This document shows, in pieces, positions 20,601 to 49,409 of a DNA stretch of 64,000 nucleotides. The DNA is from Paenarthrobacter ureafaciens (GTDB lineage Bacteria; Actinomycetota; Actinomycetes; Actinomycetales; Micrococcaceae). The first letter of the stretch is position 1. Each line of letters opens with the position of its first letter. The notes beneath the pieces are model-generated. The model ran no database searches, was not told where the DNA came from, and worked only from the letters and a program-made list of their open reading frames with translations. Made by a program: the position numbers and the translations under genes. The DNA is taken from the NCBI RefSeq assembly GCF_004028095.1, contig NZ_SBHM01000006.1:186001-250000 (forward strand). The letters are read 5' to 3'.

Positions 20601-21359
20601 TCAGGCGAGCAGTGTGCGGAAGTCGCCGTCGACGATGTGCCCGTAACTTTGGTAAGCCTCGACCACCGCGTCTTCAACTGTCTTTACGTCAAGACCGAGC
20701 AGGAGATCGTTCGCAGCTCCCGCCGTCGCCGGGTCCCACTCAAGGCCCAAGGCCGCATAGCTGGCCGTAAGGACCTCACGGATGGGCGCGGAATCCTCCA
20801 CAACGATCACGGAACTGAACAACCATCCGCCTGAGACCACGCGCTGTGCCGTGCCGATGAGCTTGATGCGGTGCTCCGGCGAATCCGGTGATTGTCCATG
20901 GACGCTGAACTCACCGGGACAGTACTCGCCCGCGATTTCGCCGACGGCGGCATGGACGCCAACACTGCGCAACGCGCCGGCCAACAGCTCACCGAACTGC
21001 GAGAACCGCGCCTTCGCGTGAACGATCGCGTCCGGGTGCGGCTCAATATGGTCAATGACGAGCGTGCCTTGATGATAGGCGGCCGCCCGCCCGCCGGCCT
21101 TCCGGACCAGAGGCTCGAAGCCCAACCGCCGGCAGGCATCTGCTGCCGCTTCGAATTCCGGGAGGTTCGCATCCCGCTGGCCGAACGCCACCGTGGGAAG
21201 TGGCCGGTAGAGCCTCAGCGACGGCCCCAGGCGGCCGCTCCGCGCGCGCTGCAGGAGTTCAAGCGCGAAGTCGAGGTCCTCCGCTGCACCCAGCGATTCC
21301 GGCTGCCGGTAGACAGTAAGACGAGGCAGCTGCGGCGTTGAGAGCTCCTGCTCAGTCAT
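20601..21359 (-). CDS. Lipoate-protein ligase-like (LplA/BirA fold) protein
   Basis: 252 residues of the biotin/lipoate ligase fold. Conserved 'LVRKAGGRAAAYHQGTLVID' aligns with the RRxSGGGAVYHD..G loop of LplA, and 'KLIGTAQRVVSGG' carries the expected lysine. The substitutions in the Gly-rich loop are seen in lipoyl/octanoyl transferase relatives, so substrate is open. The ATG at 21359 overlaps the stop of the upstream thioesterase gene (TGATG), and the FdhF-like gene follows after 61 bases. Confidence 0.8.
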   Translation of the reverse strand: MTEQELSTPQLPRLTVYRQPESLGAAEDLDFALELLQRARSGRLGPSLRLYRPLPTVAFGQRDANLPEFEAAADACRRLGFEPLVRKAGGRAAAYHQGTLVIDHIEPHPDAIVHAKARFSQFGELLAGALRSVGVHAAVGEIAGEYCPGEFSVHGQSPDSPEHRIKLIGTAQRVVSGGWLFSSVIVVEDSAPIREVLTASYAALGLEWDPATAGAANDLLLGLDVKTVEDAVVEAYQSYGHIVDGDFRTLLA

Positions 21360-25383: not shown

Positions 25384-25443
25384 ACGCCTATTCTGTCAGT
25401 GCCTCCGCCTAGCGTGGTTCCACCAGCCACCGACAGGAGAATC

Positions 25444-26535
25444 ATGCCCTCGCAGGAGCTTGCCGAAACCGAAGCATCCTTCCCGGGAGTACCCCCGGCC
25501 TCATCCATGCCCAGCTGGTACCCGGCTCTGCTGCAGACCGTTGCCAAGGAGGTGCACGTTGGGCGGACGCGCGCGGCAGCGGCGGCTAACAGTGAACTAC
25601 TGCGCTCCTACTGGAGTATCGGGCGGCACCTTGCCGAGCGGGAAACGGAGCAAGGTTGGGGCGCCAAGGTCGTTACGAGGTTGTCGGCGGATATCCGCAC
25701 CCGCTTTCCCGAGGCCAAAGGCTTCTCCCCCAGGAACCTCCGATACATGAAGAGCTTCGCCCAGGCCTGGCCGGACTTCCCGATGTTGCAAGCGCCGCTT
25801 GCAACATTGCCCTGGTACCACCAGATCGCCCTGCTGGAAAAGCTCGACGACGGCGCCACGCGGCTTTGGTACGCGGCGGCAGCTGCCCAACACGGTTGGT
25901 CGCGCAACGTCCTGGTCCACCAGATCCAAACGCGCTTGCACGAGCGGTCGGGCCAAGCCATCACCAACTTCGCTGCCACCATGGTTCCTGCTGATTCGGA
26001 CCTCGCACAGCAGGCCACAAAAGATCCGTACGTCTTTGACTTCCTGGCCATGACGGACAGGCATTCGGAGCGGGAGCTGGAGCTGCAATTGGTGAAGCAC
26101 GTTGAGAAGTTCCTGCTGGAGCTGGGGCAGGGTTTCGCGTTTGTGGGCGAACAGGTCAGGTTGGAGATCAACGGGGATGAGTTCTTTGCCGACTTGCTTT
26201 TCTACCATCTCAAGCTGCGTTGCTACATGGTCATTGAGCTCAAAGCCGTGAAGTTTGAGCCTGGTTTCCTTGGGCAATTGGGCATGTACATGGCAGCCGT
26301 TGATGACCTGATGGCACACCCGGACGACAAACCCACCATTGGCCTGTTGCTGTGCAAGGAAAAGAACAGCGTGGTGGCCGAGTACGCGTTACGGGGATTC
26401 AACACCCCCATTGGCATTGCTGAATGGCGCACCTCGCTGGCCGATTCTTTGCCGGATGAGATCGTCTCAAGCCTGCCCAGCATCGAAACCCTGGAGGCTG
26501 AGCTGGCCAGCGAAGCCGAGCGGCTGGGTGGCTAG
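25444..26535 (+). CDS. DUF1016/YhcG-family PD-(D/E)XK nuclease
   Basis: 363 residues from the ATG at 25444, which has AGGAG 6 bases upstream. N-terminal DUF1016 helical domain (about 20-190, 'RSYWSIGRHLAERE', 'FSPRNLRYMKSFAQAWP', 'LPWYHQIALLEKL') and C-terminal nuclease domain with 'EFFADLLFYHLKLRCYMVIELKAVKFEPG', read here as D...ExK in 'ADLLFYH' and 'VIELKAVKF'. Such nucleases are frequent in defence islands and beside type I restriction systems. It marks the left side of the accessory stretch. Confidence 0.88.
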   Translation: MPSQELAETEASFPGVPPASSMPSWYPALLQTVAKEVHVGRTRAAAAANSELLRSYWSIGRHLAERETEQGWGAKVVTRLSADIRTRFPEAKGFSPRNLRYMKSFAQAWPDFPMLQAPLATLPWYHQIALLEKLDDGATRLWYAAAAAQHGWSRNVLVHQIQTRLHERSGQAITNFAATMVPADSDLAQQATKDPYVFDFLAMTDRHSERELELQLVKHVEKFLLELGQGFAFVGEQVRLEINGDEFFADLLFYHLKLRCYMVIELKAVKFEPGFLGQLGMYMAAVDDLMAHPDDKPTIGLLLCKEKNSVVAEYALRGFNTPIGIAEWRTSLADSLPDEIVSSLPSIETLEAELASEAERLGG

Positions 26536-31701: not shown

Positions 31702-33759
31702 ATGGAAGCAACAGCGCGACCCCTACGCATGACGCTGTCGGATGTGGCAGCCCTTTCCCACGTTCAACGCCCCGTTGTCTCCATGTGGCGGAAGCGAAGC
31801 AGCGAAGGACCCTTGCCCTTCCCGGCGCCGGCGGAAGTTGCGAACGGCGTCGAACTCTTTGACGCAGACGACGTCACCTCGTGGCTGCAGGCCACCGGCC
31901 GAGGTAAGAATCCCGAGGCGATAAATGACGTGGCTGCCTATGCAAAACCAGTGCCCCTCACCGGCGAGTCAAAGGACAACCGCAAGATCTTCGAAGGCCT
32001 GACCGCACTACTCGCGTTGAAGGTCATTACCGGCCAAGTGTTGGGTAACAGAAATGCAACCGCTCTACTGGACGACGCCGACGAGGCTGACCCGGACGAT
32101 CTGTTCCTTTATTCCGAACTGGAGTCCTTGGGCGCCGCTCTTCAGGGGTTGGCCAGCTTCGCAGACAGATTGGCGGACAGCGCCTACAGCGCCCCAGCGG
32201 CGTTTGAGAAACTCCTGACCAACCGCTTCAAGGAGGGCCTAAGGGAGCATGCGGGCACGGCGCTGACCACTGCCGCCCTCAATCTCGTCGGAGCAACCGC
32301 CGTAGAGCTCGCTGCAACGCTCGACAGTACGCCCGTCTTCGTGGATGCCACTCCGGGCGGGAGCGACGTGATGCTGAGCATTGCCCAGCAGTTCGGCGAG
32401 AAGGGGTCGGTCACCTTCCTGGCAGCTGATCACGACGGCGGTGCCTCACGTTTGGCGCGTCGGCGGCTGGCGGTGCATGGTACGGACAGCGCGCCCGTCA
32501 GGGTTGACGCCAAAGGTGCCTTCGCCGTCACGGGCTCCGCCGTTCATGTGGCGCAATATCCAGCGCCCGGTGAACTTGAACTAGGCACAAAAGGCATCCT
32601 CTCGGGCATTGAGAACATCGTGCTGCAAATGGACGACTACCAGCGAGCCGTGGTGATCGCACCTTCCCGGGTCCTGACAGACCCTCTTGGCGGTGAAGCG
32701 GGCAACGTCCGCGCAGACCTGTTGCGGTCCGGGCGTGTGCGGGCAATTATTCGTCTCACTGTCGGACTCCTCCGGGCGAAACCGCGCGAGCCGCAAGCAT
32801 TGTGGGTGTTGGGGCCATCGTTTGCCGACGTACCCATTGCAGACCGGTGGACCATGGTCGCAGACCTTAGTACTGCCGAGTTGACTCTCGACGTGAGTCA
32901 GGACCTGATCAGTGATGTGGTTGCGTCCATGGGCGACCAGGCAACTATCCGAGCTCATTCCTTCCGTTTTGCCCGGCTCGTTAATACCCGGGCTCTGCTC
33001 GCCGGGGCGGGCGCTCTGGTCAGAGCACCGTCCAAGCGGACGCCGCTGGCTACATCCGGCGCCGAGACGGCTTTGCGCATCGACGACCTTGTCAGGAACC
33101 TTGGGCCAGGGACAGACGACCATGGGCTTCTAAGTGTTCAGCCTGTAGCTCACCGATCCGCCTCGACGCCAGCTTCAGTACAGGAACTCATGCGCTCCGG
33201 CCATGTGAAATACGCCAAAGGCATTCGGATCCAGGAAACGGACCTCAATACGACGGCGGGAAGCAGGATCATAGGCCGGGAGGAACTGCAGGACCAGCAC
33301 AACGCCAAGCCGCGCTTCGTCACCCTGATGGACTTCGCAGCCAACTACCCTGCTGGCCGGCTCACCGAGCCAGGAGACGTTGTCTTCTGCACCAGCCCAC
33401 GGCCCGCAGCGGTCGTTGACGCGGAGGGTGGCGCCGTCGTGGTCTTTCCAGCCCGAATCCTGAGGATTGACCAGGGTGACCCGGGCGGCCTGCTGCCCGC
33501 CGTCGTCGCCCGTGACATCAACAAGCTCCACCCGGCAGACAAGACCTGGCGCAACTGGCAACTGCGCCGCACGGGAGAAGCCCAACGCCAACCACTCAGC
33601 AACGCCCTTCAGCGGCTGCAACACGAGCAGGCCAAGGCCCTCGAACGACTCAAACAGCTTGAAGAACTCGCTACCCTGATTACGGACGGCGTAGCGGGCG
33701 GAAGCCTCACCCTGACAGACCCCATCTCCACCGCCGTACCAGAAGAAGGAACTAAATAA
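31702..33759 (+). CDS. HTH protein with degenerate HsdM-like core and HsdS-like C-terminus, first gene of type I RM operon
   Basis: 685 residues. An N-terminal helix-turn-helix (about 10-60, 'MTLSDVAALSHVQRPVVSMW') is followed by an HsdM-like helical region (95-200). A Rossmann region then replaces the methylase motif I by 'VDATPGGSDVM' (about 214) and has no NPPF motif IV. 'IIRLTVGLLRAKPREPQALWVLGP' (second half 'REPQALWVLGP') parallels the HsdM segment after motif IV. The C-terminal ~190 residues look like half an HsdS: a TRD-like domain ('YPAGRLTEPGDVVFCTSP') and a final coiled coil. So it is probably catalytically inactive and may bind DNA or regulate. Its stop overlaps hsdM by one base (TAATG). 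Confidence 0.8.
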   Translation: MEATARPLRMTLSDVAALSHVQRPVVSMWRKRSSEGPLPFPAPAEVANGVELFDADDVTSWLQATGRGKNPEAINDVAAYAKPVPLTGESKDNRKIFEGLTALLALKVITGQVLGNRNATALLDDADEADPDDLFLYSELESLGAALQGLASFADRLADSAYSAPAAFEKLLTNRFKEGLREHAGTALTTAALNLVGATAVELAATLDSTPVFVDATPGGSDVMLSIAQQFGEKGSVTFLAADHDGGASRLARRRLAVHGTDSAPVRVDAKGAFAVTGSAVHVAQYPAPGELELGTKGILSGIENIVLQMDDYQRAVVIAPSRVLTDPLGGEAGNVRADLLRSGRVRAIIRLTVGLLRAKPREPQALWVLGPSFADVPIADRWTMVADLSTAELTLDVSQDLISDVVASMGDQATIRAHSFRFARLVNTRALLAGAGALVRAPSKRTPLATSGAETALRIDDLVRNLGPGTDDHGLLSVQPVAHRSASTPASVQELMRSGHVKYAKGIRIQETDLNTTAGSRIIGREELQDQHNAKPRFVTLMDFAANYPAGRLTEPGDVVFCTSPRPAAVVDAEGGAVVVFPARILRIDQGDPGGLLPAVVARDINKLHPADKTWRNWQLRRTGEAQRQPLSNALQRLQHEQAKALERLKQLEELATLITDGVAGGSLTLTDPISTAVPEEGTK

Positions 33760-35387
33760 TGCCCCCGAAAGCCAAGGTGGACCTCGCCCCGTCCACTATG
33801 AAGGAACTCAAGGACACACTCTGGAAAGCGGCGGACAAGCTTCGCGGCTCGATGGATGCGTCACAGTACAAGGACGTAATCCTTGGGCTGGTGTTCCTTA
33901 AGTACGTGTCGGACGCGTTCGAGGAACGTCGCGAACAGATTCAGGCTGAGCTGGAAGCCGAAGGACTCAACGAAGAGCAGATCAGCCAGCTCATCGACGA
34001 TGTGGACGAGTACACCGGACGCGGCGTGTTCTGGGTAGCACCACGCGCGCGCTGGACCTACCTTGCAGAGAACGCCAAGGGCCTGCCTGCAGCCATGGGC
34101 GAGCACCCGAAGTCCGTTGGCCAGCTCATCGACGAGGCCATGGACATGATCATGATGGACAACAAGTCCCTGGCCGCGACGCTCCCCAAGATCTACAACA
34201 GGGACAATGTGGACCAGCGCCGCTTGGGCGAGTTGCTGGACCTGTTCAACTCCGCGCGGTTCACGGGTCAGGGTGCCAGCAAGGCACGCGACCTCCTCGG
34301 AGAGGTGTACGAATACTTCCTGGAAAAGTTCGCAAAGGCCGAGGGTAAGCGCGGCGGGGAGTTCTACACGCCGGCCGGCGTAGTCCGCGTACTCGTGGAA
34401 GTACTGGAACCGCACCGTGGGCGCGTGTATGACCCCTGCTGTGGTTCGGGCGGCATGTTCGTCCAAGCCGAGAAGTTCCTCGAGGCCCACAACATGGAGG
34501 GCTCGGACATTTCCGTCTACGGCCAGGAGCTCAACGAGCGCACCTGGCGGATGGCCAAGATGAACCTCGCCATTCACGGCCTCAACGCCAACTTGGCCTC
34601 GCGATGGGGCGACACCTTCGCCCGCGATCAGCACCCGGAGCTGACGGGCAACAACGGCGCGGACTTCATCATGGCCAACCCGCCGTTCAACATCAAGGAC
34701 TGGGCCCGCTCCGAGTCCGATCCGCGCTGGAAGTACGGCGTTCCCCCTGCCGGCAACGCCAACTACGCCTGGATTCAGCACATCATTTCCAAACTGGCAC
34801 CCGGCGGCAGCGCCGGCGTGGTCATGGCCAATGGCTCCATGTCATCCAACTCCGGCGGCGAAGGCGAGATCCGCGCCCAGTTGGTGGAGGCCGACCTCGT
34901 CTCCTGCATGGTTGCCCTGCCCACCCAGCTATTCCGTAGCACCGGCATTCCGGTGTGCACGTGGTTCTTCGCCAGGGACAAGACCGCGGGTCCGCGCGGC
35001 TCGGTGGATCGGACTGGTCACGTACTCTTCATCGACGCGCGGAACCTTGGCCACATGGTGGACCGCGCCGAGCGTGCCCTGTCCGACGAGGACATCGCCA
35101 AGATCGCCAACACCTACCACTCGTGGCGTGGCACCGCCTCCGCCGTTGAGGCTGGGCTGACGTACGACGACGAAGCGGGCTTCTGCTACTCTGCTTCACT
35201 TGCGGAGATCAAGGCCGCGGACTATGCGCTGACGCCCGGACGGTATGTCGGCGCAGCTGAGGTTGAGGACGACGGCGAGCCGATCGAGGAGAAGATCGCA
35301 CGGCTCTCGAAGGAACTGTTTGAGCAGTTTGAAGAAGCCGAGCGGTTGGCTGCTGTTGTGCGCGAGCAGTTGGGGAGGGTCTCGTGA
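33759..35387 (+). CDS. hsdM: HsdM, type I restriction-modification methyltransferase subunit
   Basis: 542 residues. Helical N-terminal domain 'LKDTLWKAADKLRGSMDASQ' (about 14-33) contacts DNA and HsdS; SAM motif I is 'YDPCCGSGGMFV' near residue 223; catalytic motif IV is 'NPPFN' near 307. This gives N6-adenine methylation with HsdS specificity. All catalytic motifs are intact. The stop overlaps the hsdS GTG start by 4 bases (GTGA), indicating coupled translation. Confidence 0.95.
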   Translation: MPPKAKVDLAPSTMKELKDTLWKAADKLRGSMDASQYKDVILGLVFLKYVSDAFEERREQIQAELEAEGLNEEQISQLIDDVDEYTGRGVFWVAPRARWTYLAENAKGLPAAMGEHPKSVGQLIDEAMDMIMMDNKSLAATLPKIYNRDNVDQRRLGELLDLFNSARFTGQGASKARDLLGEVYEYFLEKFAKAEGKRGGEFYTPAGVVRVLVEVLEPHRGRVYDPCCGSGGMFVQAEKFLEAHNMEGSDISVYGQELNERTWRMAKMNLAIHGLNANLASRWGDTFARDQHPELTGNNGADFIMANPPFNIKDWARSESDPRWKYGVPPAGNANYAWIQHIISKLAPGGSAGVVMANGSMSSNSGGEGEIRAQLVEADLVSCMVALPTQLFRSTGIPVCTWFFARDKTAGPRGSVDRTGHVLFIDARNLGHMVDRAERALSDEDIAKIANTYHSWRGTASAVEAGLTYDDEAGFCYSASLAEIKAADYALTPGRYVGAAEVEDDGEPIEEKIARLSKELFEQFEEAERLAAVVREQLGRVS

Positions 35388-36535
35388 TCGACTGGTGTCA
35401 GGTGAAACTTGGCGACATCGCGGACGAAGTGACTGTGGGACATGTTGGATCTATGGTCCACGAGTATCGCTCCGAGGGAATCCCATTGTTACGTTCCCAG
35501 AACGTACTCCCTCACGACTTCGACCTTAAGGATGTCAAATACATCGACCGTGACTTCCATGCCCGACTAAAAAAGTCGGCACTCCGACCCGGCGATGTAG
35601 TCACGGTTAGAACGGGCAAGCCCGGGGCAACGGCTGTGGTCCCTATGCACTGGGCGGAGGCAAACTGTTCAGACTTAATCATTACGAGACCAGGTAGCGA
35701 AATCAACGCCTATTGGCTGAGTTACTACATCAACAGCGTTGCAGCGGGTTATATAAACTCACAATTAGTCGGTGCAGTCCAACAGCACTTCAATGTGGGC
35801 GCGGCAAAGAACATTATGCTGAACCTTCCCCCATTGCACGAACAACAGGCCATTGCTGAGGCGCTGGGGGCACTCGACGACAAGATCGCCGCCAACACCA
35901 AACTCGTTTCCTTGGTGGACGATCATATGGGTCTTGAATACTCAGCCGCTGTCCTTGGGTCGGCTTCAGCTTCGCACCTCAACGAGGTTGCAGAATTTCA
36001 CAATCGGAAGCGAGTCCCCCTATCTTCTCGTGAACGCGAGCAACGGCCCGGCGACGTGCCGTACTACGGCGCCAGCGGAGTCTTTGGCACAGTCGACACA
36101 GCAATTTTCGATGAGCCGTTAGTTCTGGTGGGAGAGGACGGCACTGTGATCAACGGCGACGGAACCCCCGTATGCCAGTACATTTGGGGGCCAGCGTGGG
36201 TCAACAACCATGCACATGTATTGACAGGCAAAGGAATTTCGACTGAATTGCTCTTTCTCGCCATAAAGCGAACGCAGGTTATTACTTTGGTCACGGGAGC
36301 AGTCCAGCCAAAGATCAACATGGGTAACCTGAAGCGGCTGACGCTGGAGACTCCATCAGTGGACAGGCTCGGCCGCTTGGAGCAAATCGTGAAGACGGAG
36401 ACTGCAGTAAAGCGCGCCGCAATTGAAGAGAGCCGAACTCTCGCTGCCACTCGCGACGTCCTCCTCCCCCAACTCATGTCCGGCAAGCTTCGAGTCAAAG
36501 AGGCTCAGAAAGTTCTTGAAGACGTCAGGGTGTAG
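35384..36535 (+). CDS. hsdS: HsdS, type I restriction specificity subunit
   Basis: 383 residues with two target-recognition domains and two conserved helices. TRD1 about 5-150 ('GIPLLRSQNVLPHDFDLKD'), central helix with 'LPPLHEQQAIAEALGALDDK', TRD2 about 185-340 ('DVPYYGASGVFGTVDTAIFD'), then a C-terminal helix. It decides the bipartite DNA target of both methylation and cleavage. The TRD-coding stretches are visibly more AT-rich than hsdM and hsdR, as expected for exchanged specificity modules. Start is GTG within the hsdM stop. Confidence 0.93.
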   Translation: MIDWCQVKLGDIADEVTVGHVGSMVHEYRSEGIPLLRSQNVLPHDFDLKDVKYIDRDFHARLKKSALRPGDVVTVRTGKPGATAVVPMHWAEANCSDLIITRPGSEINAYWLSYYINSVAAGYINSQLVGAVQQHFNVGAAKNIMLNLPPLHEQQAIAEALGALDDKIAANTKLVSLVDDHMGLEYSAAVLGSASASHLNEVAEFHNRKRVPLSSREREQRPGDVPYYGASGVFGTVDTAIFDEPLVLVGEDGTVINGDGTPVCQYIWGPAWVNNHAHVLTGKGISTELLFLAIKRTQVITLVTGAVQPKINMGNLKRLTLETPSVDRLGRLEQIVKTETAVKRAAIEESRTLAATRDVLLPQLMSGKLRVKEAQKVLEDVRV

Positions 36536-36617
36536 ATGCCCGGCCCCATGATTGTACGAGCCGGGCATGCACTCCAAAAGAAGACCATTGAAAAGAGATA
36601 AAATTGGGGAAATCAAG

Positions 36618-39600
36618 ATGGCAGCACCCGCAGTAGCCTTTTCGGAAGCCGACTGGGAAGGCGCCGCGAAGGAGCGGCTGGGCGAGTTGGACTGGCGGCC
36701 GATGGACGGCCAGGCGATTGCGCCCGGCAGCGGGGAGCGCGAGTCCTGGTCAGAGCTCTTGATCCGACCCCGCTTGTTTGCCGCGCTTCAGCGGCTCAAT
36801 CCCTATGTCCCTGCACAGTACCTGCAGCAGGCATTGTCGGAAATCGCATCCCCAAAGTCGAACGATGCCATGAGCGAGAACCATCGAATCCATAATTATT
36901 TCGTCGACGGATATCGACTGACCTATATCGATTCGGACGGAAACGAAGCTAATCCGACCATCCGCCTGCTCAGCCAGTCACCGGATGAGAACGATTGGCT
37001 GGCCGTTAATCAGGTCACAGTAGTGCAGGGGGACTACAAGCGGCGCTTCGACATCGTGCTCTATTGCAACGGCATGCCCATCAGCATCATCGAACTAAAG
37101 AAGGCGGGCAGTGCCCACGCCGACCTCCCCGGTGCCCACGCCCAACTCCAGACTTACCTCCGCGAATTTCCATTGGCCTTCCGTTTCTGCGTCTTTACGC
37201 TCGCGAGTGACGGAATCCAGGCCAAATACGGAACTCCGTTTACCCCTTTCAACCACTTCTCACCTTGGAATGTGGATGATGACGGTGTCCCCGTTCCGCA
37301 GGGCCACATGGTTGATGGCGATGCCGTCACCGCATTGGATACTGCCCTGGATGGGCTCTACAACCAGGAACGTTTCCTGCAGCTGATCCGTAACTTCACG
37401 GCGTTCGACCAGGGCTCGGGCGGTCTGGCCAAACTTATTGCCAAGCCGCACCAGTACTACGCAGTGACCAAGGCTGTTGCCAGCACGATCCTGGCCGTCG
37501 AGAGCAACGGCAAAGCCGGCGTCGTCTGGCACACCCAAGGGTCCGGCAAGTCGATGGAAATGGAACTGTACGCCAACATGGTGGCCCGCCAACCAAAGCT
37601 GAAGAACCCGACCGTCGTGGTGATCACCGACCGTAACGAACTGGATGGGCAGTTGTTCGAAAGCTTCGATCGCAGCCTGCTCCTCGCTGAGTCACCCAAG
37701 CGAATCAAGAAGCGCTCCGAGCTGCGGGACGAGCTGAGTAACCGGACAACAGGCGGCATCTATTTCACGACACTGCAGAAGTTCGGCCGCAGCAAATCCG
37801 AGAAGGAAGCAGGCGCGGACCACCCGCTCTTGTCCAACCGGCGCAACATCATTGTCGTCGTTGATGAGGCGCACCGGTCGCACTACGACGACCTGGACGG
37901 ATACGCTCGACACCTGCGGGATGCACTCCCCCACGCCACCCTGATTGCCTTCACTGGAACTCCGATCTCTTTTGACGACCGGAACACCCAGGAAGTCTTC
38001 GGCGACTACATCGACATCTACGATCTGTCCCGTGCAGTAGAAGACGGCGCCACCGTACCCGTGTACTTTGAGCCGCGGCTGATCAAGGTGGGTCTGTCCG
38101 ACGGCGTCACCGAGGAGGACCTGGACAAGTCCGCAGATGAACTGACGCTCGGGCTGGACGATGCTGAACGCGCCCGCATCGAGGCAAGTGTCGCCGTCGT
38201 AAACGCTGTGTACGGTGCCCCGCAACGCGTCGCTGCCTTGGCCGAAGATCTCGTGGCCCACTGGGAGAACCGCCGCGAACGGATGCTCAAATTTATTGAG
38301 GCGCCTGGAAAGGCAATGATCGTGGGTGGCACGCGGGAGATCTGCGCGAACCTCTACTCGGCCATCGTGGCTCTGCGACCGGAGTGGCATTCGGACGACC
38401 TGTCAAAGGGCATGATCAAGGTGGTCTACTCGGGCGATGCGACTGATGTGCCGCCGGTGTCTACTCATGTGCGTCGCGATTCGCTGAATGCCCAGGTGAA
38501 GGAACGGCTAAAGGACGTCGACGACGAGCTTGAACTGGTGATCGTCAAGGACATGATGCTTACCGGCTTCGACTCTCCACCGCTACACACTTTGTATCTG
38601 GACCGACCGCTCAAGGGCGCGCTGTTGATGCAGACACTTGCCCGGGTTAACCGCACGTTCCGGGGCAAAGAAGACGGTCTGCTGGTGGCGTATGCCCCGC
38701 TTGCCGAGAACCTGTCCAAGGCGTTGAGCGAGTACACGCAGTCCGACCAGGCGAACAAGCCCGTGGGCAAAAACATCGACGAGGCCGTCGGGCTGACGAT
38801 TTCCTTGGTAGGGACTTTGCGTTCTTTGTTGGCCGGCCATGACTGGAAATCCGTGCTGATGAAGGGCGGATCCAAGGCCTTCCTCAACGCCGTAACCGGA
38901 GCTGTCAGCTACCTGAGGAATCCGGCTACTCCTGGCAATCAGCCCGCAGACGGGGAAGAGTCACTCGCCGCGAAATACCGCAAATTCTCCGGTCAGCTGT
39001 CCCGTGCGTGGGCGCTTTGCTCCGGATCGGAGACCCTTGCAGAGCTGCGCCCAGAGATCCAGGTCTACGAGGAAATCCGGGTTTGGATGGCGAAGTACGA
39101 CGCCGCCGATCGGCAGGCAAGCGGCCAACCGGTGCCAGAGGAAATCCAGCGCCTGCTGGGAAACCTCATTGCTTACGCCACGTCCTCCGGCGAAGTCCTG
39201 GACATCTACGATGCTGCCGGCATGCCCAAGCCGTCGTTGGATGACCTGACGCCGGAGTTCATCGCCAAGACGCAGAAGGCCCGGAACCCACAACTAGCTA
39301 TCGAGGCTCTGCGGAAACTGATTGCCGATGAATCTGTCTCTTCCACCCGGAACAATGTGATCCGTCAGCGTGCCTTTTCCGAGCGGATCACCGAGCTGAT
39401 GAAGAAGTACACGAACCAGCAGCTGACCTCGGCCGAGGTCATCGCCGAACTCGTGGAGTTGGCCCGTGAAGTGGCCGCGGAGGGCAAGCGTGGTGAGCAG
39501 TTCACTCCCCCGCTCAACTCAGACGAACTCGCCTTCTACGACGCAGTGGCCCAGAACGAGGCAGCCGTTGAGGTTCAGGGCGAAGGCATCTTGGCTGACA

Positions 39601-39806
39601 TCGCCCGTGAACTGGTCGCTGTCATGCGTCGCGACGTCCGCACTGACTGGACCGTTCGCGACGACGTCCGGGCGAAGCTGCGTTCCTCGATCAAACGGCT
39701 CTTGGTTCGGTTCGGCTACCCACCAGATAAACAGCCAGAGGCCATCAAACTGGTCATGGAGCAGATGGAGTCCATGGCGCCTCGGTTTGTGGAGGCACGG
39801 TCATGA
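36618..39806 (+). CDS. hsdR: HsdR, type I restriction endonuclease/translocase subunit
   Basis: 1062 residues from the ATG at 36618 (GGGGA 8 bases upstream); a start at 36552 would add 22 unsupported residues. N-terminal PD-(D/E)XK nuclease with 'RRFDIVLYCNGMPISIIELK' at about 141-160, then SF2 motor motifs: Walker A 'TQGSGKSMEM' (about 304), 'VVVDEAHRSHYDDL' (about 412) and 'AFTGTPISFDD'. A helical C-terminal domain binds the HsdMS core. Motors and nuclease are intact. The stop overlaps the start of the RelA/SpoT-like gene by 4 bases (ATGA). Confidence 0.95.
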   Translation: MAAPAVAFSEADWEGAAKERLGELDWRPMDGQAIAPGSGERESWSELLIRPRLFAALQRLNPYVPAQYLQQALSEIASPKSNDAMSENHRIHNYFVDGYRLTYIDSDGNEANPTIRLLSQSPDENDWLAVNQVTVVQGDYKRRFDIVLYCNGMPISIIELKKAGSAHADLPGAHAQLQTYLREFPLAFRFCVFTLASDGIQAKYGTPFTPFNHFSPWNVDDDGVPVPQGHMVDGDAVTALDTALDGLYNQERFLQLIRNFTAFDQGSGGLAKLIAKPHQYYAVTKAVASTILAVESNGKAGVVWHTQGSGKSMEMELYANMVARQPKLKNPTVVVITDRNELDGQLFESFDRSLLLAESPKRIKKRSELRDELSNRTTGGIYFTTLQKFGRSKSEKEAGADHPLLSNRRNIIVVVDEAHRSHYDDLDGYARHLRDALPHATLIAFTGTPISFDDRNTQEVFGDYIDIYDLSRAVEDGATVPVYFEPRLIKVGLSDGVTEEDLDKSADELTLGLDDAERARIEASVAVVNAVYGAPQRVAALAEDLVAHWENRRERMLKFIEAPGKAMIVGGTREICANLYSAIVALRPEWHSDDLSKGMIKVVYSGDATDVPPVSTHVRRDSLNAQVKERLKDVDDELELVIVKDMMLTGFDSPPLHTLYLDRPLKGALLMQTLARVNRTFRGKEDGLLVAYAPLAENLSKALSEYTQSDQANKPVGKNIDEAVGLTISLVGTLRSLLAGHDWKSVLMKGGSKAFLNAVTGAVSYLRNPATPGNQPADGEESLAAKYRKFSGQLSRAWALCSGSETLAELRPEIQVYEEIRVWMAKYDAADRQASGQPVPEEIQRLLGNLIAYATSSGEVLDIYDAAGMPKPSLDDLTPEFIAKTQKARNPQLAIEALRKLIADESVSSTRNNVIRQRAFSERITELMKKYTNQQLTSAEVIAELVELAREVAAEGKRGEQFTPPLNSDELAFYDAVAQNEAAVEVQGEGILADIARELVAVMRRDVRTDWTVRDDVRAKLRSSIKRLLVRFGYPPDKQPEAIKLVMEQMESMAPRFVEARS

Positions 39807-40627
39807 GTGCACCGCTCGATAGCGCACGATTTGCAGCTGGTGTCGAGTTGCAAGTAACCAGCCTGATAGACCGGCAAGCTCACCTCGCTGCCTCTCTCTC
39901 GGCAATTCAAACGGCGATCGAAGCCCGCCTACGGGACGACGGCCTTAACTACCACCTCGTCAAAAGTCGGGTGAAAAGTGCCGAATCTGTGCGGGGAAAA
40001 TTGAGCAAGCTCGACCACGAAGGCAATCCCAAGTACCAGAATGGTTTGGATGATCTCGACGACATTCTCGGCGTTCGCGTCATCACCTATATTGAGCCTG
40101 ATGTCACTAACGTCGTGTCCGCTCTGACCGGGCAGTTCAAGGTATTGGAGAACACTGACAAAAAGGCACAGCAAGTCAATAAAGGTGTTCTCGGCTACGC
40201 GGCGCATCACCTGGTGTTGGAAGTCCCTGACATTCAAACTCCGGCAGGATGCGCAGGATGCATAGGACAACGCTTCGAGGTTCAGATTAAGACGGTTCTT
40301 CAGCACGCCTGGGCGGAATTTGAGCACGACATTTGCTACAAAGCTCCGGGCACGATACCTCCAGCAATCAACCGCGCGTTCACGTTGGCTTCGGGTCTCA
40401 TTGAGTTAGCGGACAACGAGTTCGTAAAGATACAGAAAGCAGTTGCCAAGGAAGAGGCGAATCTTTCACCCGATCCTGACGGTCATTCTGATGAGCCTAT
40501 AACCTCCGATACGTTGGCGGAGGTGCTTACGGCCGAGCTCCCAGATCATCCTCGGAGCCGTAAAGAGCAGTATGACTGGTTGGTGGATCTGGTTGGGTCC
40601 CCGGAGAGTAGTCCAGTGTTTGTGTGA
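39803..40627 (+). CDS. RelA/SpoT-domain alarmone synthetase, 3' end replaced by IS insertion
   Basis: 274 residues; residues 1-263 are native, the last 11 are read from the IS. A RelA/SpoT nucleotide pyrophosphokinase domain is present: 'SRVKSAESVRGKL' (55-67), 'LDDILGVRVITY' (85-96), 'GYAAHHLVLEV' (131-141) and 'FEVQIKTVLQHAWAEFEHD' (158-176) with the catalytic Glu. There is no HD hydrolase domain, so it would make (p)ppGpp or a related pyrophosphorylated nucleotide, like small alarmone synthetases or toxSAS toxins. ATG overlaps the hsdR stop by 4 bases, making it the fifth gene of the RM operon. The original C-terminus lies at 41851-42116 beyond the element. Whether the shortened protein is active is unknown. 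Confidence 0.85.
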   Translation: MSAPLDSARFAAGVELQVTSLIDRQAHLAASLSAIQTAIEARLRDDGLNYHLVKSRVKSAESVRGKLSKLDHEGNPKYQNGLDDLDDILGVRVITYIEPDVTNVVSALTGQFKVLENTDKKAQQVNKGVLGYAAHHLVLEVPDIQTPAGCAGCIGQRFEVQIKTVLQHAWAEFEHDICYKAPGTIPPAINRAFTLASGLIELADNEFVKIQKAVAKEEANLSPDPDGHSDEPITSDTLAEVLTAELPDHPRSRKEQYDWLVDLVGSPESSPVFV

Positions 40628-40669
40628 GTTTCGTGTCCGAGAATGGACACAGGAGGTAATTCACGAATC

Positions 40670-40948
40670 ATGGCACGCAGACACGCCCCGGAGCAGGTCA
40701 TCGCCAAGGTCCGGCAGGGCCAAAAGATGCTCAACGATGGCCGTCCGATGGTCGAGGTCGTCAAGGAGCTCCAGGTCACCGAGGCGACTTGGTACCGCTG
40801 GCTGAACCAGTACGGGTCTGAGAAGAACGCCGAAGCGTCCAAGCGGACCAAGGAGCTGGAGAAGGAGAACGCCCGGCTCAAGCGGTTGCTGGCGGAGAAG
40901 GAACTGGCGATCGACATCCTGAACGAGGTGGCGAAGGGAAAATTCTGA
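40670..40948 (+). CDS. IS3-family transposase OrfA
   Basis: 92 residues from the ATG at 40670. Helix-turn-helix ('ARRHAPEQVIAKVRQGQKM', 'ELQVTEATWYRWLNQYG') and a leucine-zipper-like tail ('LEKENARLKRLLAEKELAID'). It binds the terminal repeats. The frame ends in TGA right after the GGGAAAA slippery site from which a -1 shift would give the OrfAB transposase. Confidence 0.92.
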   Translation: MARRHAPEQVIAKVRQGQKMLNDGRPMVEVVKELQVTEATWYRWLNQYGSEKNAEASKRTKELEKENARLKRLLAEKELAIDILNEVAKGKF

Positions 40949-41817
40949 GCCCCGAACCACGTCGCCGTGCCGTGCGCATGGCGGTGGAGAAGTTCGGGGC
41001 ATCCGAACGCTTCGCCTGCAAGGTCTTGGGGCAGAACCGGTCCGCGTTCCGCAAAAAGAAACCCGACATGGGCTTCGAAGAGGCGCAGCTCCGCTCGGAG
41101 CTGCGTGCCATCGCAATGAAGCACCCGGCGTGGGGCTGGCGGAAGGCCCGCTGGCACCTGCTGGCCCAGCCGGCGTGGGACGGGGTAGCGCTGAACAGGA
41201 AGCGCATCCGCAGGCTCTGGCGCGACGAAGGCCTGACCTGCAAACCCAGAGCCCGGAAGAAGCGCCGCACCGGGCCCGGCGCCGGGGAACAGAAACGCCT
41301 CACAGCCCAGTATCCGATGCACGTGGTCAGCTTCGACTTCCAATCCGACGTGACCTCCTGCGGCCGGCACATCCGGTTCCTCAACGTCATCGATGAATAC
41401 ACCCGCACGGCGCTGGCCGTCATCCCGCGAAGGTCGTTCAAAGCCACTGACGTGGTCGCGGTGCTGGAGAACATCATCGCCGAAACCGGCACCGCACCGA
41501 CATACCTCAGGTGTGACAACGGCCCCGAATTCACCGCCGCCGCACTGATCGACTGGTGCGATACCGCCGGAGTCGACACCGCCTTCATCGACCCGGGCTC
41601 ACCTTGGCAGAACGGCTTCATCGAATCCTTCAACGCCCAATTCAGAAGGGAACAACTCTCCGGAGAGATCATGGACACCATGGCCGAAGCGAAGTATTTG
41701 GCCGAGGAATGGAAGACTATCTACAATCATGAACGGCCCCACGGATCCCTGGACGGCATGACGCCGAAACGCTACTGGGAAACCTGGACGCAAGAAAACC
41801 AATTAGCTATCGCATAG
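40945..41817 (+). CDS. IS3-family transposase OrfB (DDE catalytic part)
   Basis: About 290 codons in the -1 frame relative to orfA; it is most likely made as an OrfAB fusion by frameshift at 40936-40942, though a GTG at 40972 could start it alone (281 residues). The rve/DDE core shows Asp in 'VVSFDFQSDVTS', Asp in 'RCDNGPEFT' and Glu in 'NGFIESFNAQFR'. 'HERPHGSLDGMTPKRYW' closes the domain. All three catalytic residues are present. Confidence 0.93.
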   Translation: MSPEPRRRAVRMAVEKFGASERFACKVLGQNRSAFRKKKPDMGFEEAQLRSELRAIAMKHPAWGWRKARWHLLAQPAWDGVALNRKRIRRLWRDEGLTCKPRARKKRRTGPGAGEQKRLTAQYPMHVVSFDFQSDVTSCGRHIRFLNVIDEYTRTALAVIPRRSFKATDVVAVLENIIAETGTAPTYLRCDNGPEFTAAALIDWCDTAGVDTAFIDPGSPWQNGFIESFNAQFRREQLSGEIMDTMAEAKYLAEEWKTIYNHERPHGSLDGMTPKRYWETWTQENQLAIA

Positions 41818-41850
41818 ACGCTGGACTGCTAACGGGGGCCCAATCAGATC

Positions 41851-42116
41851 TACTCAAGTCCATGAGCATAACCACAGTAGCCGATGCTCTAAATTTGCTG
41901 GACGTCGCAGATTGGAACTTTGTGCGGGAAAGGATGTCTTATAAGTTCCCAGCCGGGCACGTGCGAATTGTCGACGACTTTCTGCTTAAGGAATTCGGGG
42001 AACGCTACATTGATGAAACGAAGTCATTGGGCGACGATCCTGCTCGCGGTTCGAAACTTCGTTTCCGCCTCAAGAAATTTGAACATCAACCGGAGCCGGG
42101 CCCGGGCTTCGCCTAA
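41851..42116 (+). pseudogene. Severed C-terminal part of the RelA/SpoT-like protein
   Basis: If the IS and one GATC copy are removed, the codon begun at 40589 continues in frame here (L-L-K-S-M-S-I...) to the stop at 42116, giving a 350-codon gene. The piece encodes about 88 residues ('DVADWNFVRERMSYKFPAGH', 'RIVDDFLLKEFGERYIDE') of unknown fold. An internal ATG at 41862 could start an 84-residue peptide, but no ribosome site stands out. In toxSAS-like synthetases the region after the catalytic domain often controls activity; that is only an analogy here. Confidence 0.85.
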
Positions 42117-42169: not shown

Positions 42170-42676
42170 ATGTCAGCACACAATACGTCTACTGGGTACA
42201 ACCCAGCTGTACCGACTGTCCCGCAGTCGGCTCCGCAAGCCAACACCGGCAAGAAGCAAGGACCATTCAGAGCGTTCGCCGCAAATGCTGGGCCGGTCCA
42301 GCTGGCACGAGTTGTTCTGGGCGCAATTCTTGGGTTGCTGTTCATATTGACTTGGCTCGCCACGGGGCCCGTTGTTGTGGACGCTGGCAGTCCTTCGGAC
42401 TGGAAGTCGCAGCTCGCTGCTGCAAGCGTCAAGAACGAGGTTAACAACGGGGAGACTAAGGGAGCTCCCCAGCAATCCGTGGTCAACGGATGGTACGCAA
42501 ACGACATCGCAGCTGTTACAGCCTCGCAGAATACTTATATCGCAGCCAGTTCCGCCCGAAACGGCGCCCTCCTGATGCTGCTCGGCCTAGGAGTTGCCGG
42601 TGAGCTGATTCTCCGAGGCCTTGAACGTGCACGGCTTTCCTCTGCGAAGTCCGACTCGCCGCAGGGAGCCTTTTAA
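42170..42676 (+). CDS. Small membrane protein, two predicted helices
   Basis: 168 residues. Helix 1 'VVLGAILGLLFILTWLATG' (about 47-65) and helix 2 'GALLMLLGLGVAGELILRG' (about 128-147) enclose a polar loop of about 60 residues. No family recognised. The stop overlaps the next ATG by one base (TAATG), so the two proteins are likely co-expressed and may interact. Confidence 0.7.
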   Translation: MSAHNTSTGYNPAVPTVPQSAPQANTGKKQGPFRAFAANAGPVQLARVVLGAILGLLFILTWLATGPVVVDAGSPSDWKSQLAAASVKNEVNNGETKGAPQQSVVNGWYANDIAAVTASQNTYIAASSARNGALLMLLGLGVAGELILRGLERARLSSAKSDSPQGAF

Positions 42677-43278
42677 TGGTCAAGAGCGTGGTCATGGTCC
42701 TGGTTAGCGTCATCATCGGGGCCATAGCCGTAGTCGGCTTATCGAATCTGACCGGAGTCAGTCCATTTGTATCGCAGCGGAACGACCGAAGCCAGCCCGC
42801 TCTCTTGAAGTCGATCAAAGACATCAGCCAGTACCATGCCGCCGTGGGAAACTTTGAAACCGTGGTTGATATCGACGATAACGTCCCAGGCCTTCCTTCC
42901 GCTATTGCAGGACGTCGCACTCTGTTCGTTGCCGCGGGCACGGTAAACGCCTATGTGGATCTATCCAGTTTCGCGGATGACGACCTGAAGTTGTCTGCCG
43001 ATGGGAAGTCGGTCACTGTACGGCTGCCGGAAGCGGTGCTGGACAAACCTAACTTGGACCACGATCGGTCCTACGTGTTCAGCCAAGACCGCGGGCTCAT
43101 CGACCGGATCGCCGACGCCATGGAGACTCCCCCACAGGCGGAGTTCTTCAAACTTGCAGAGACGAAGCTGACTTCTGCTGCGCAGGAATCCAGACTCCGG
43201 GAACAGGCTGTCGAGAACACCAGGACCATGTTGACCGGGATGTTCAGCTCTCTAGGGATCCAAGCCATCTTCCGTTGA
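42676..43278 (+). CDS. DUF4230-domain membrane-anchored protein
   Basis: 200 residues with one N-terminal membrane helix ('VVMVLVSVIIGAIAVVGLSN') and a DUF4230 domain: 'QYHAAVGNFETVVDIDDNVP' and 'VNAYVDLSSFADDDLKLSAD'. The domain probably lies outside the membrane. Function is not known. Coupled to the preceding membrane protein. Confidence 0.8.
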   Translation: MVKSVVMVLVSVIIGAIAVVGLSNLTGVSPFVSQRNDRSQPALLKSIKDISQYHAAVGNFETVVDIDDNVPGLPSAIAGRRTLFVAAGTVNAYVDLSSFADDDLKLSADGKSVTVRLPEAVLDKPNLDHDRSYVFSQDRGLIDRIADAMETPPQAEFFKLAETKLTSAAQESRLREQAVENTRTMLTGMFSSLGIQAIFR

Positions 43279-43939: not shown

Positions 43940-44965
43940 CTATCCGGATTCCCCAGCTTCAATCATTCGGATGGCCTCCGCTACGGCATACATTGCCTCC
44001 ATGCCGTCATACCTAACACAGGCCTTTTGCACTTTTCGGAATGGGCCGCCTTGGATCGATTTCCTCACCGTCACAACACCGTTCCCGGTTGTTATCCGCC
44101 ATGAACGATTCTCACGGCTACTTTTTGGGCTCCCAAGCCACACAGAGCCCTCGCTGCTGCTGGCTTCCCAGAAATATTTAGGCATCGTCTTTTCGACAGC
44201 CTCACAAAGTGCGAAAGCCGTGGAATACCTTCGGGAAGGGTCAGTATCCAGAGACCGGGAGATAACCCTTTTCAAAGCACTAGACACATATGGCGGCCAT
44301 ACCTTCCGGTCAGGGAACAGTCCTTGTTTGGCTGCCTGACGAATTCCAGACATCGGGTCCGGCCCCTGAGCAACCTGCAGGAGTTGCTCGCTCCAAGCTG
44401 GTTCACCATTGAGCAGACGATAAGCTAGACATCCAAGGGCATAGATATCACCCGATGCTGACTCGACGGCGTCAGATTCAGGGGTAAGCGTGGGAATGTA
44501 GGCAATCTGACCGTGGCTTGGCTGTGTTCCTTTAATAAGAGCAAGGCCAAAGTCACCAATTTTTATGGATCTTAGCTCATCTAGCAGGACGTTTGCAGGC
44601 TTAAGGTCCCGGTGGAGGACTCCCCTACTGTGTAGATGACCCACGCCCCGGCATATATCAGGAAACCAATCATAAAAATCCCGTAGGTTTACGGGTCCCG
44701 AGCTGCAGGCAACCTCCAAGCTTCCGTTTGGCATATACTCTGTCCGTATTACAAAATCCTCACCATCTTTAGCAGCGCTAAAAACCTTTACGGTGTAGCG
44801 GGACTCTGATGCCACCATGAGCTTCGCCTCGTCAAGGTTGTCATTGAACCCTGTTCTTCCAAGAGGGATACGTTTTGTTGCATACACTCGGCCAGTATAA
44901 GAATCGACTTCCTTCCAAACTGATCCGAAGTTCCCACGGCCTAAACACTCAAGCTGCCTGAGCAA
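43940..44965 (-). CDS. Hanks-type serine/threonine protein kinase, soluble
   Basis: 341 residues. Gly loop 'GRGNFGSVW' (9-17), ATP Lys31 in 'YATKRI', catalytic loop 'HRDLKPANVLL' (118-128) and 'DFGLAL' (138-143): all present, so it should be active. The kinase fold ends near 265; the last 70 residues ('SWRITTGNGVVTVRKSIQGG') form a beta-rich tail unlike PASTA repeats. No membrane segment, unlike PknB. TTG start at 44965 within the upstream gene (17-base overlap). Base composition is notably more AT-rich than the flanking nrd genes, a sign of transfer. Confidence 0.88.
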   Translation of the reverse strand: MLRQLECLGRGNFGSVWKEVDSYTGRVYATKRIPLGRTGFNDNLDEAKLMVASESRYTVKVFSAAKDGEDFVIRTEYMPNGSLEVACSSGPVNLRDFYDWFPDICRGVGHLHSRGVLHRDLKPANVLLDELRSIKIGDFGLALIKGTQPSHGQIAYIPTLTPESDAVESASGDIYALGCLAYRLLNGEPAWSEQLLQVAQGPDPMSGIRQAAKQGLFPDRKVWPPYVSSALKRVISRSLDTDPSRRYSTAFALCEAVEKTMPKYFWEASSSEGSVWLGSPKSSRENRSWRITTGNGVVTVRKSIQGGPFRKVQKACVRYDGMEAMYAVAEAIRMIEAGESG

Positions 44966-45437
44966 GCTGCACCTGTCGCCGGGCCACCAAGGCTGCAGAA
45001 ATAGCCTCGTCGAAATACTTGGGCAAGTTCCTCGAAGTCCTCAACGCCGGCAGACCAGGGATATCGGCAACACTGGCGCCCCGTTTGAGTCCGAATTCAG
45101 TTGGCATCGATGCCTTCTTTATCGACGTGACGCTGACTTTTCGGGCTCCTAACGCGGCCAGCACAACACCCTCCACCTGGGCTCGAAAAAGTACGGCGTC
45201 CGTGTTCGTGCGCGCTAGAGCTCCTTGAACGACACTGGCCCCTTCTAGATCAAGGTCGATGAAGGACTCAGTGACGTTCGTGTGCACCCAATCCAGTTCT
45301 CGATCTCGGCTCCCGAAGTCAGGGATCACAGCCTTTTTGCTGTCGTGAATCCGCAAATGCTCGTTGTTAGAGCCATCCAGCAATACCCACAGAAACTCAT
45401 TCTTAGCGGGAACTATACCCAAGTAGAAGGTGCTCAT
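44949..45437 (-). CDS. Unknown protein coupled to kinase, perhaps RNase H/RuvC-like fold
   Basis: 162 residues, no signal or membrane segment. Starts with a beta-hairpin-like 'FYLGIVPAKNEFLWVLLDGS', then 'AVLFRAQVEGVVLAALGARK' and 'VSVTSIKKASM', a layout that recalls RuvC/RNase H-like proteins (helix with Glu, then strand and Lys). This is a pattern impression, not a confirmed family. It starts 7 bases after the nrdF stop and overlaps the kinase gene by 17 bases, so it is probably expressed from the nrd operon together with the kinase. Confidence 0.6.
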   Translation of the reverse strand: MSTFYLGIVPAKNEFLWVLLDGSNNEHLRIHDSKKAVIPDFGSRDRELDWVHTNVTESFIDLDLEGASVVQGALARTNTDAVLFRAQVEGVVLAALGARKVSVTSIKKASMPTEFGLKRGASVADIPGLPALRTSRNLPKYFDEAISAALVARRQVQLAQAA

Positions 45438-45444
45438 GTTGGCC

Positions 45445-47210
<1,766 letters not shown>

Positions 47211-47225: not shown

Positions 47226-49409
47226 TCATAGCGCACATGAAACACAGCCTTCCACCTCAGTGCCCTCAAGGGCCATCTGGCGGAGACGGATGTAGTAAAG
47301 GGTCTTGATGCCCTTGCGCCATGCGTAGATCTGCGCCTTGTTGATGTCACGCGTGGTGGCGGTGTCCTTGAAGAACAGCGTCAGGGACAGGCCCTGGTCC
47401 ACGTGCTGCGTGGCAGCGGCGTAGGTGTCGATGATCTTCTCGTAGCCGATCTCGTACGCATCCTGGTAGTACTCCAGGTTGTCGTTGGTCAGGTACGGAG
47501 CCGGGTAGTAGACGCGGCCGATCTTGCCTTCCTTGCGGATTTCGATCTTGGCGGCCACCGGGTGGATGGAGGACGTGGAGTTGTTGATGTAGCTGATGGA
47601 ACCGGTAGGCGGAACCGCCTGGAGGTTCTGGTTGTAGATGCCGTGCTCCATGACCGAGGCCTTGAGCTCGCGCCAGTCATCCTGGGTGGGGATGTGGTGG
47701 CCGGCGAAAAGTTCGCGGACGCGCTCGGTAGCCGGAACCCATTCCTGCTCGGTGTACTTGTCGAAGAACTCACCGGAAGCGTACTTGGACTTCTCGAAAC
47801 CGCCGAAAGTCTGGCCGGTCTCGATGGCCAGCTTGTTGGAAGCACGGAGGGCGTGGAACAGCACCGTGTAGAAGTAGATGTTGGTGAAGTCCAGGCCCTC
47901 TTCGGAGCCGTAGTGGACCCGCTCGCGGGCAAGGTAACCGTGCAGGTTCATCTGGCCGAGGCCGATCGCGTGGCTCTGCGCATTGCCCTGTGCGATGGAC
48001 GGCACGGAGTTGATGTAGGACATGTCGGACACGGCGCTCAGTGCACGGATGGAGGTCTCGATGGAGAGGCCGAAGTCCGGGGAATCCATGGTCTTGGCGA
48101 TGTTCATGGAACCGAGGTTGCAGGAGATGTCCTTGCCAACGGTCTCGTAGCTGAGGTCCTCGCCGTAGATGGACGGGGTGGAAACCTGCAGGATCTCGGA
48201 GCAGAGGTTGCTCATGGTGATCCTGCCGTCGATCGGGTTGGCCCGGTTCACGGTGTCTTCGAACATGATGTACGGGTAGCCGGACTCGAACTGGATCTCC
48301 GCGAGGGTCTGGAAGAACTCGCGGGCGTTGATCTTGGACTTCTTGATCCGGGAATCGTCCACCATCTCGTAGTACTTCTCCGTGACGGAGATGTCGGAGA
48401 AGGGCACGCCGTAAACGCGCTCGACGTCGTACGGGGAGAAGAGGTACATGTCCTCGTTCTTCTTGGCGAGCTCGAACGTGATGTCCGGAATCACGACACC
48501 CAGGGACAGGGTCTTGATACGGATCTTCTCATCCGCGTTCTCGCGCTTGGTGTCCAGGAAGCGGTAGATATCCGGGTGGTGCGCGTGCAGGTACACAGCA
48601 CCGGCACCCTGGCGGGCACCGAGCTGGTTGGCGTAGGAGAAGCTGTCTTCGAGAAGCTTCATCACGGGGATGACGCCGGAGGACTGGTTCTCGATCTGCT
48701 TGATCGGGGCACCGTGTTCACGGATGTTGGTCAGGGACAGCGCAACACCGCCGCCACGCTTGGAAAGCTGCAATGCGGAGTTGATGCCACGGGCAATCGA
48801 CTCCATGTTGTCCTCGATGCGCAGGAGGAAGCAGGAGACGAGCTCGCCGCGCTGGGCCTTGCCGGCGTTGAGGAATGTGGGGGTGGCCGGCTGGAAGCGG
48901 CCGTCGATGATCTCGTCCACCAGGCGGGTGGCGAGCTCTTCGTTGCCCCGGCCGAGGTGCAGGGCAACCATGCAGACGCGGTCTTCATACCGCTCAAGGA
49001 AGCGCTTGCCGTCGAAAGTCTTCAACGTGTAGGACGTGTAGAACTTGAAGGCGCCAAGGAAGGTCTCGAAGCGGAACTTCTTCTTGTAGGCGCGGTTGAA
49101 GAGGTCACGGATGAAATTCATCGTGTACTGGTCGAGGGTTTCACGCTCGTAGTACTGGTTCTTCACCAGGTAATCGAGCTTCTCTTCCAGGTCGTGGAAG
49201 AACACGGTGTTGTTGTTCACGTGCTGCAGGAAGTACTGGTGCGCGGCTTCGCGGTCGGCTTCGAACTGGATCTCTCCGTTCGGGCCGTACAGGTTCAACA
49301 TGGCGTTGAGCTCGTGGTAGCCCAAGCCCTTATAAGCCTCGGGCAGTGGCTTCTTGGCCGATTCCACGGCGCTTCCGGCTACATCTGTTTCTGCGACAGT
49401 CGTGTCCAA
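47226..49409 (-). CDS. nrdE: NrdE, class Ib ribonucleotide reductase alpha subunit
   Basis: 727 residues, full length. It reduces ribonucleoside diphosphates with NrdF radical and NrdH electrons. Active-site regions include '[19 protein letters not shown]', '[13 protein letters not shown]' and the C-terminal redox pair in 'VEGCVSCAL'. It lacks a long ATP-cone, as expected for class Ib. The TTG at 49409 would overlap nrdI by 31 bases; a later start is possible. No intron or intein is present in the coding sequence. Confidence 0.97.

Follow-up and report, generated by a model that had tools for sequence, protein, structure and literature searches.

Restriction-modification (RM) loci have long been suspected of harbouring back-up suicide genes, and PrrC is the one well-tested type I case encountered. 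Excerpts of two accounts (PMC2610378, PMC12707154) describe how this anticodon nuclease is silenced by its type I RM enzyme EcoprrI (type IC) and freed when restriction is inhibited, a tested precedent for a type I RM system working with a translation-blocking effector. In a passage of the former, rloC of G. kaustophilus follows a C-terminal relic of hsdR, and the complete hsd locus lies elsewhere (PMC2610378). Passages of Makarova et al. 2012 (PMC3506569) propose a coupling of immunity to suicide, with toxins displaced time and again at RM loci of types I and III. Here we consider a 64,000-nucleotide stretch of Paenarthrobacter ureafaciens DNA (contig NZ_SBHM01000006.1, positions 186,001 to 250,000; hereafter "the window", lying in contig C6 of a 4.4 Mb genome), in which a gene for a small alarmone synthetase (SAS) is the last of a predicted type I RM operon. 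What is new here is a variable, exchangeable slot behind hsdR, many of whose occupants look like defence genes.

The likeness to PrrC/EcoprrI and RloC, as far as the excerpts go, is that an effector gene meant for inhibited restriction lies inside an hsd operon or beside one. PrrC differs in being an anticodon nuclease whose gene is embedded in hsd and conserved with it, whereas the SAS is a predicted pyrophosphokinase encoded at the 3' end and rarely linked. The 2012 hypothesis likewise predicts exchangeable toxin genes in RM loci (PMC3506569, in part), but its text passages name no fixed slot behind hsdR, and its main text contains none of the whole words RelA, SpoT, alarmone, ppGpp, stringent or pyrophosphokinase. 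The interval also recalls the E. coli immigration control region, where a passage of PMC12707154 describes a changing set of restriction genes framed by anchors; in the Micrococcaceae, nrdEF and a lipoyl-ligase-like gene take that part. Among open-access papers listed in PMC, none was found that reports a gene with a RelA/SpoT domain as part of a type I RM operon.

The slot was surveyed in 95 stretches, 83 of which carry hsdR in full length with 70% identity or more (the window is not counted, and at least G219, G296, G299, G341 and G271 were omitted). A slot was counted as filled where the nearest open reading frame (ORF) of at least 100 aa is on the same strand, no more than 150 nt behind hsdR. 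Such ORFs are present in 50 of the 83 loci and fall into 32 clusters; these counts carry error, as the relatives' genes were called by a greedy longest-ORF script, which overlooks some genes and lets in shadow ORFs (in cluster c0, antisense ORFs stand together with genuine genes). The largest cluster, in 9/50 loci, encodes proteins of 155-191 aa related to the window's 168-aa gene. Other slots hold OLD-like AAA_15 proteins (a cluster of three), a Ppl-like 932-aa protein (a cluster of two), AAA_21, AAA_13 and GmrSD (each twice), GIY-YIG, GajA (738 bits), SoFic and PDC-S02. In Arthrobacter sp. H5, close to the end of a contig, hsdR is directly followed by a partial 5'-nucleotidase gene that covers model positions 4-137 of 302 (L273:11309-11779), and the slot genes of L300 and L304 overlap hsdR by 4 bases (GTGA). 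Slot content varies in other genera too. At a threshold of 1e-4, PADLOC matched 10 of 18 tested slot genes and none of 9 upstream controls, which are what remains of a random draw of 10 from 38 ORFs (the tenth was dropped for the slot gene L278) and may include shadow ORFs. Because the 18 were picked by eye, and because PADLOC matches to AAA families are broad, this contrast is a lead rather than a measured enrichment.

Several further genes of these operons deserve mention. In L180 a 5'-nucleotidase (L180:9964-11187; PF06189, PADLOC PDC-S08) stands between hsdS and hsdR; with that of L273, it shows that operons of this type encode another enzyme acting on nucleotides besides the SAS. A family of about 500 aa lies directly behind hsdR in four genomes (L165:13014-14522, L174, L182 and L197), and its L165 member has no Pfam or PADLOC match; the same is true of the GTGA-overlapping 637-aa gene of L300 (L300:4618-6531). 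Such unmatched slot genes become defence candidates.

In the window, the operon reads g1-hsdM-hsdS-hsdR-SAS on the + strand (Table 1). Overlaps of 1 base (g1/hsdM) and 4 bases (hsdM/hsdS), followed by an 82-base gap before hsdR and a second 4-base overlap at its end, reproduce what the original prediction had drawn from the ORF coordinates. Its claim that the synthetase start overlaps the hsdR stop is also borne out: the two share an ATGA at 39803..39806 (+). The 82-base gap assumes that hsdR begins at the ATG at 36618, residue 23 of a longest frame opening with TTG at 36552; matches to relatives' HsdR proteins start mostly at residues 15-23 of that frame (range 6-28). The domains expected of a type I RM system are all present, with an N6-methylase domain and an NPP[FYW] motif in HsdM, specificity domains in HsdS, and both nuclease and SWI2/SNF2 motor domains in HsdR (Pfam), and the operon is predicted to be such a system, conserved in Micrococcaceae. 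A GGAGG lies 7 bases 5' of the SAS ATG, within hsdR. Since SAS translation would start inside the end of hsdR, the synthetase is probably made together with the restriction subunit. A scan of promoters and terminators was uninformative, being no richer than shuffles (3 vs 2.5 and 12 vs 10.2 sites).

The SAS gene of this strain is interrupted by an IS3-family insertion sequence (IS) element with imperfect terminal inverted repeats and a flanking GATC repeat, both read by eye. The open frame (39803-40627) terminates inside the element and the last ~90 codons are severed, but the RelA_SpoT domain is left whole (62.6 bits, cut-off 27). This domain (PF04607) is the only one that Pfam finds in the 5' piece, where neither a hydrolase nor a regulatory domain is seen; in the 3' piece, ORF 41862-42116 has no Pfam match. 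The sole other genomic copy of the element, of the same 1257 bp (G000:C7:1054892-1056148), is printed as 100% identical, although scores of 2259 vs 2268 bits leave room for perhaps one mismatch, so the insertion is probably recent. The truncated protein (P0001) is listed on four contigs, and the 5' piece is 90% identical to its intact relative P0002. Judged by the model of P0002, the element has taken away the greater part of the C-terminal helices, and thus the SAS of this strain is probably off or deregulated.

In alignment A1, twelve residues are invariant (P0002 numbering: R56, K58, S62, K66, D87, Y132, H136, E159, Q161, T164, E174 and H175), which we take to be synthetase residues. Among the solved structures compared, the core fold is nearest to RelQ/RelP, and the protein is therefore best described as a RelQ/RelP-type synthetase with a putative pyrophosphokinase activity. 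It differs from RelQ/SAS1 and RelP/SAS2 in its RM operon context and in a conserved region of some 110 additional C-terminal residues beyond the core. CapRel was considered as the closest relative and rejected as the best match, though it may still be related: its alignment is confined to the core and poorer than that of RelQ/RelP. The C-terminal extension found no counterpart in that of toxSAS/CapRel in a comparison covering residues 7-214, where the C-terminal region was barely tested. A tblastn search of plasmids with P0002 returned 48 records, all below 60% identity (among the 20 listed, the highest identity is 35.6% and the widest cover 94%), and a search of viral contigs gave a single weak match of 45 residues. 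Against a library of viral folds, the SAS model was matched in part by RelA/SpoT proteins of phages (about 160-240 columns).

Besides the window, hsdR directly precedes the SAS in Arthrobacter echini and Arthrobacter sp. H5. In A. echini (L004) the junction is again ATGA, with an in-frame TAG at codon 5 from that start, and the called protein begins at a later ATG. As only 8 of 87 hsdR-frame ends read ATGA (A. echini among the 8, the window uncounted), its occurrence in both pairs is suggestive. In H5 (L240) the SAS belongs to another clade and starts 2 bases after the stop of an hsdR relic, which comprises residues 888-1084 of the C-terminal part at 80% identity and contains an internal stop, while a full-length hsdR is on another contig, its adjoining hsdM split in the comparison. 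This arrangement resembles that of G. kaustophilus rloC as described in part of PMC2610378. The H5 site adjoins tRNA-Met, away from the nrd interval; it was tried as a native SAS site and rejected, since only scattered weak paralogue matches (29-43%) were found in other SAS loci, with no common gene order. In the tree the three hsdR-linked SAS genes do not form one clade: 3 label changes are needed and the starred branches force 3, on three labelled rows, two of which have identical unlabelled copies, the nearest rows (P0002 and P0009) being without neighbour data. There were thus either at least two joinings, or one old joining followed by many losses.

Since PrrC is freed when restriction is blocked and toxin swapping has been proposed for RM loci, we tentatively favour the reading that the SAS belongs to a set of interchangeable effectors that block growth or translation and are linked to restriction, following the logic of PrrC. 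The SAS and the other slot effectors would share expression with the RM enzyme, which might silence them or be sensed by them, and the effector would act in phage defence, when a phage evades or disables restriction. The coupling of SAS to restriction is unproven, and several points weigh against it. By its 4-base overlap with hsdR the window SAS lies in the hsd operon, as expected of a PrrC-like effector, but the linkage is not conserved among homologues. In a scan of named genomes, RM genes stand beside the SAS in 1 of 80 loci (kept from 572 confirmed matches), that of A. echini, with the same five genes in the same order. In the family, 52/395 genomes have an SAS at E 1e-75, and in 3 of the 30 loci examined from these 52, hsdR is directly upstream (the window, A. 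echini and H5). The search used the window's HsdR, HsdM, HsdS and g1 with five divergent HsdR/HsdM sets, on flanks of 1.5 kb for many SAS loci, so that other RM types would be missed, and a weak match in L147 (35% over 101 aa, 9 kb from the SAS) was excluded from the count. The five-gene order thus recurs in a pair that is rare; and of the two outcomes that the original prediction had named as fatal to it, homologues do lie mostly away from hsdR, but the pair is not restricted to this strain. Its reading, in which growth arrest would back up a failed restriction, is supported in part.

The remaining difficulties are of several kinds. Within the genus, a close SAS (at least 64% identity) occurs in 6/206 genomes (one, G129, a partial match) and hsdR (at least 83% identity) in 46, two of them partial; hsdR is found in 2/6 SAS genomes vs 44/200 without SAS, which is no enrichment (Fisher p = 0.40), and in one of these two genomes (G187) the two genes lie about 1.1 Mb apart. 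All three pairs carry a lesion: an SAS cut by the IS element, a TAG, and an hsdR relic. That in none of the pairs both partners are plainly intact is equally compatible with the decay of a dispensable gene and with the burden of a toxic product. The most common slot family, of 155-191 aa, is unannotated (the window member is without a Pfam match and L278 without a PADLOC match), and the PADLOC contrast comes from a hand-picked sample and a small control, with 8 of 18 genes unmatched. Free-standing SAS genes do not look like leftovers of lost RM operons, an idea that was rejected, since in seven loci the 1500 nt upstream contain no hsdR relic (E 0.07 for the best chance match). Finally, 8 of 9 close SAS genes examined sit in an interval with nrdF downstream, with or without RM genes: those of the window, A. 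echini, G187, G144, G090, G167 (where nrdF is ~19 kb from the SAS), Psychromicrobium (G257) and Edens01 (G430). In A. echini, G187, G144 and G090 the nrd side alone is visible in the fetched stretch, and G129 was not placed.

This last observation makes shared residence in a hotspot a serious and almost equal rival, because the same interval is often home to the RM operon. The SAS would be an old resident beside nrdEF and the RM operon another frequent one, so that their adjacency is a by-product, with the SAS read through from hsd; we hold this to be nearly as plausible as a restriction-linked effector. Either nrdF or nrdE appears in 31 of 142 stretches with an hsdR of at least 65% identity (a set that includes duplicates and many stretches too short to reach nrd), always downstream and convergent. 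These 31 represent 28 distinct genomes besides the window, in which the RM operon lies upstream of nrd, and the SAS is present in A. echini only and absent from 27. The lack of co-occurrence enrichment speaks for the same explanation. It fits less well with the ATGA shared by two distant pairs despite its rarity, with the H5 pair, which joins an SAS of another clade at another site across a 2-base gap, and with a slot that is variable in other genera as well.

Two explanations leave RM aside. The SAS could be a common accessory synthetase of (p)ppGpp, adjusting growth and nucleotide pools without a role in defence, its nearness to nrdEF reflecting nucleotide metabolism. Its RelQ/RelP-like core, the ribonucleotide reductase genes nearby and the free-standing copies among genes that look metabolic by eye (from ORF starts, not searched) are consistent with this, but a RelA_SpoT frame of 808 aa (presumably Rel) and an SAS of 371 aa are already present in the genome, the sparse distribution in the genus is that of an accessory gene, and there is a match to the PADLOC model PDC-S33, albeit partial (model positions 41-175 of 349, the query being the broken piece of the window); we consider it improbable. 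It is more doubtful still, to the point of being very improbable, that the SAS is a self-contained toxSAS/CapRel-like defence gene, whose C-terminal helices would silence the enzyme and sense phage independently of RM. The conserved ~110-residue region after the core invites the comparison, as CapRel is itself such a fusion according to part of PMC9712102, but CapRel is a poorer match to the core than RelQ/RelP are, and the C-terminal region has no match in a search that barely tested it.

If the SAS is indeed a restriction-linked effector, alarmone synthetases would join the RM-linked effectors. A last position with changing occupants, here an SAS since broken, hints that restriction systems can take exchangeable back-up weapons. 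An extension of this reading, which we regard as unlikely, is that the end of HsdR is a general effector socket, into which unrelated toxic enzymes are swapped, to be silenced by Hsd and released when a phage blocks restriction. Candidates may include the alarmone synthetase, AAA_13/PrrC-like, GajA/OLD and Fic proteins, the 5'-nucleotidase and GmrSD. One RM enzyme would then be both antitoxin and sensor for many abortive-infection effectors, to which an enzyme of (p)ppGpp type would add a new class. With one RM family, a fixed position and many candidate effectors, these loci offer a natural experiment on the same Hsd complex.

Table 1. Genes and elements of the window, with positions counted from its first nucleotide.
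Feature	Position	Strand	Basis or remark
g1, first gene of RM operon	31702..33759	+	ORF; N-terminal helix-turn-helix predicted by eye, HsdM-like fold
hsdM	33759..35387	+	Pfam N6_Mtase 371.7 bits, HsdM_N 95.9
hsdS	35384..36535	+	Pfam Methylase_S 71.7 bits
hsdR	36618..39806	+	Pfam T1RH-like_C 341.8, SWI2_SNF2 243.5, HSDR_N 102.5; NCBIfam hsdR
SAS 5' piece, RelA_SpoT domain whole	39803..40589	+	Pfam RelA_SpoT residues 55-181; PADLOC PDC-S33 55.2 bits
IS3-family element, 1257 bp	40590..41846	+	NCBIfam transpos_IS3; GATC repeat each side
SAS 3' piece, C-terminal helical region, severed	41847..42116	+	85% identity to P0002 residues 262-339
168-aa and 200-aa (DUF4230) genes after SAS	42170..43278	+	168-aa relatives directly behind hsdR elsewhere
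Lipoyl-ligase-like gene, left-hand anchor	20601..21359	-	beside free-standing SAS in G167, G257, G430 too
nrdF, right-hand anchor	45445..46419	-	Pfam Ribonuc_red_sm
nrdE, right-hand anchor	47226..49409	-	Pfam Ribonuc_red_lgC

The first gene, g1, has no Pfam match and lacks the NPP[FYW] motif present in hsdM. Its predicted structure, of low confidence (pLDDT 60.9), matches the M subunits of type I methylases (best 3lkd, Foldseek E 4e-11), while profile comparisons with the window's hsdM (E 0.057) and hsdS were not significant. The label of degenerate methylase that had been proposed is therefore reasonable, as far as an HsdM-like model without the motif allows. Both g1 and hsdM were detected in 61 of the 83 hsdR loci, and in 60 of these 61 g1 ends within 60 nt of hsdM. 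No g1 was found in the other 22, 8 of which had hsdM; one of the 8 is a cut-short stretch of A. echini (L241), and L004 from the same genome does carry g1. Median identity to the window proteins across loci is 61% for g1 vs 93% for hsdM, so that g1 is fast-evolving, like a specificity or arms-race component.

Some other genes of the window also deserve mention. A DUF1016/YhcG PDDEXK nuclease gene lies at 25399-26535, and the same Pfam families occur between hsdS and hsdR in L184 and L185. At 43940-45437, a Ser/Thr kinase gene (PADLOC mad6 158.6 bits, PD-T4-6-like) is accompanied by a 162-aa partner; relatives of both stand behind the RM operon in L176, and of the kinase alone in L195. An ORF containing NUMOD3 (46416-47210), whose relatives occur in L182 and L189, sits between nrdF and nrdE and resembles a gene for a homing endonuclease within the nrd operon.

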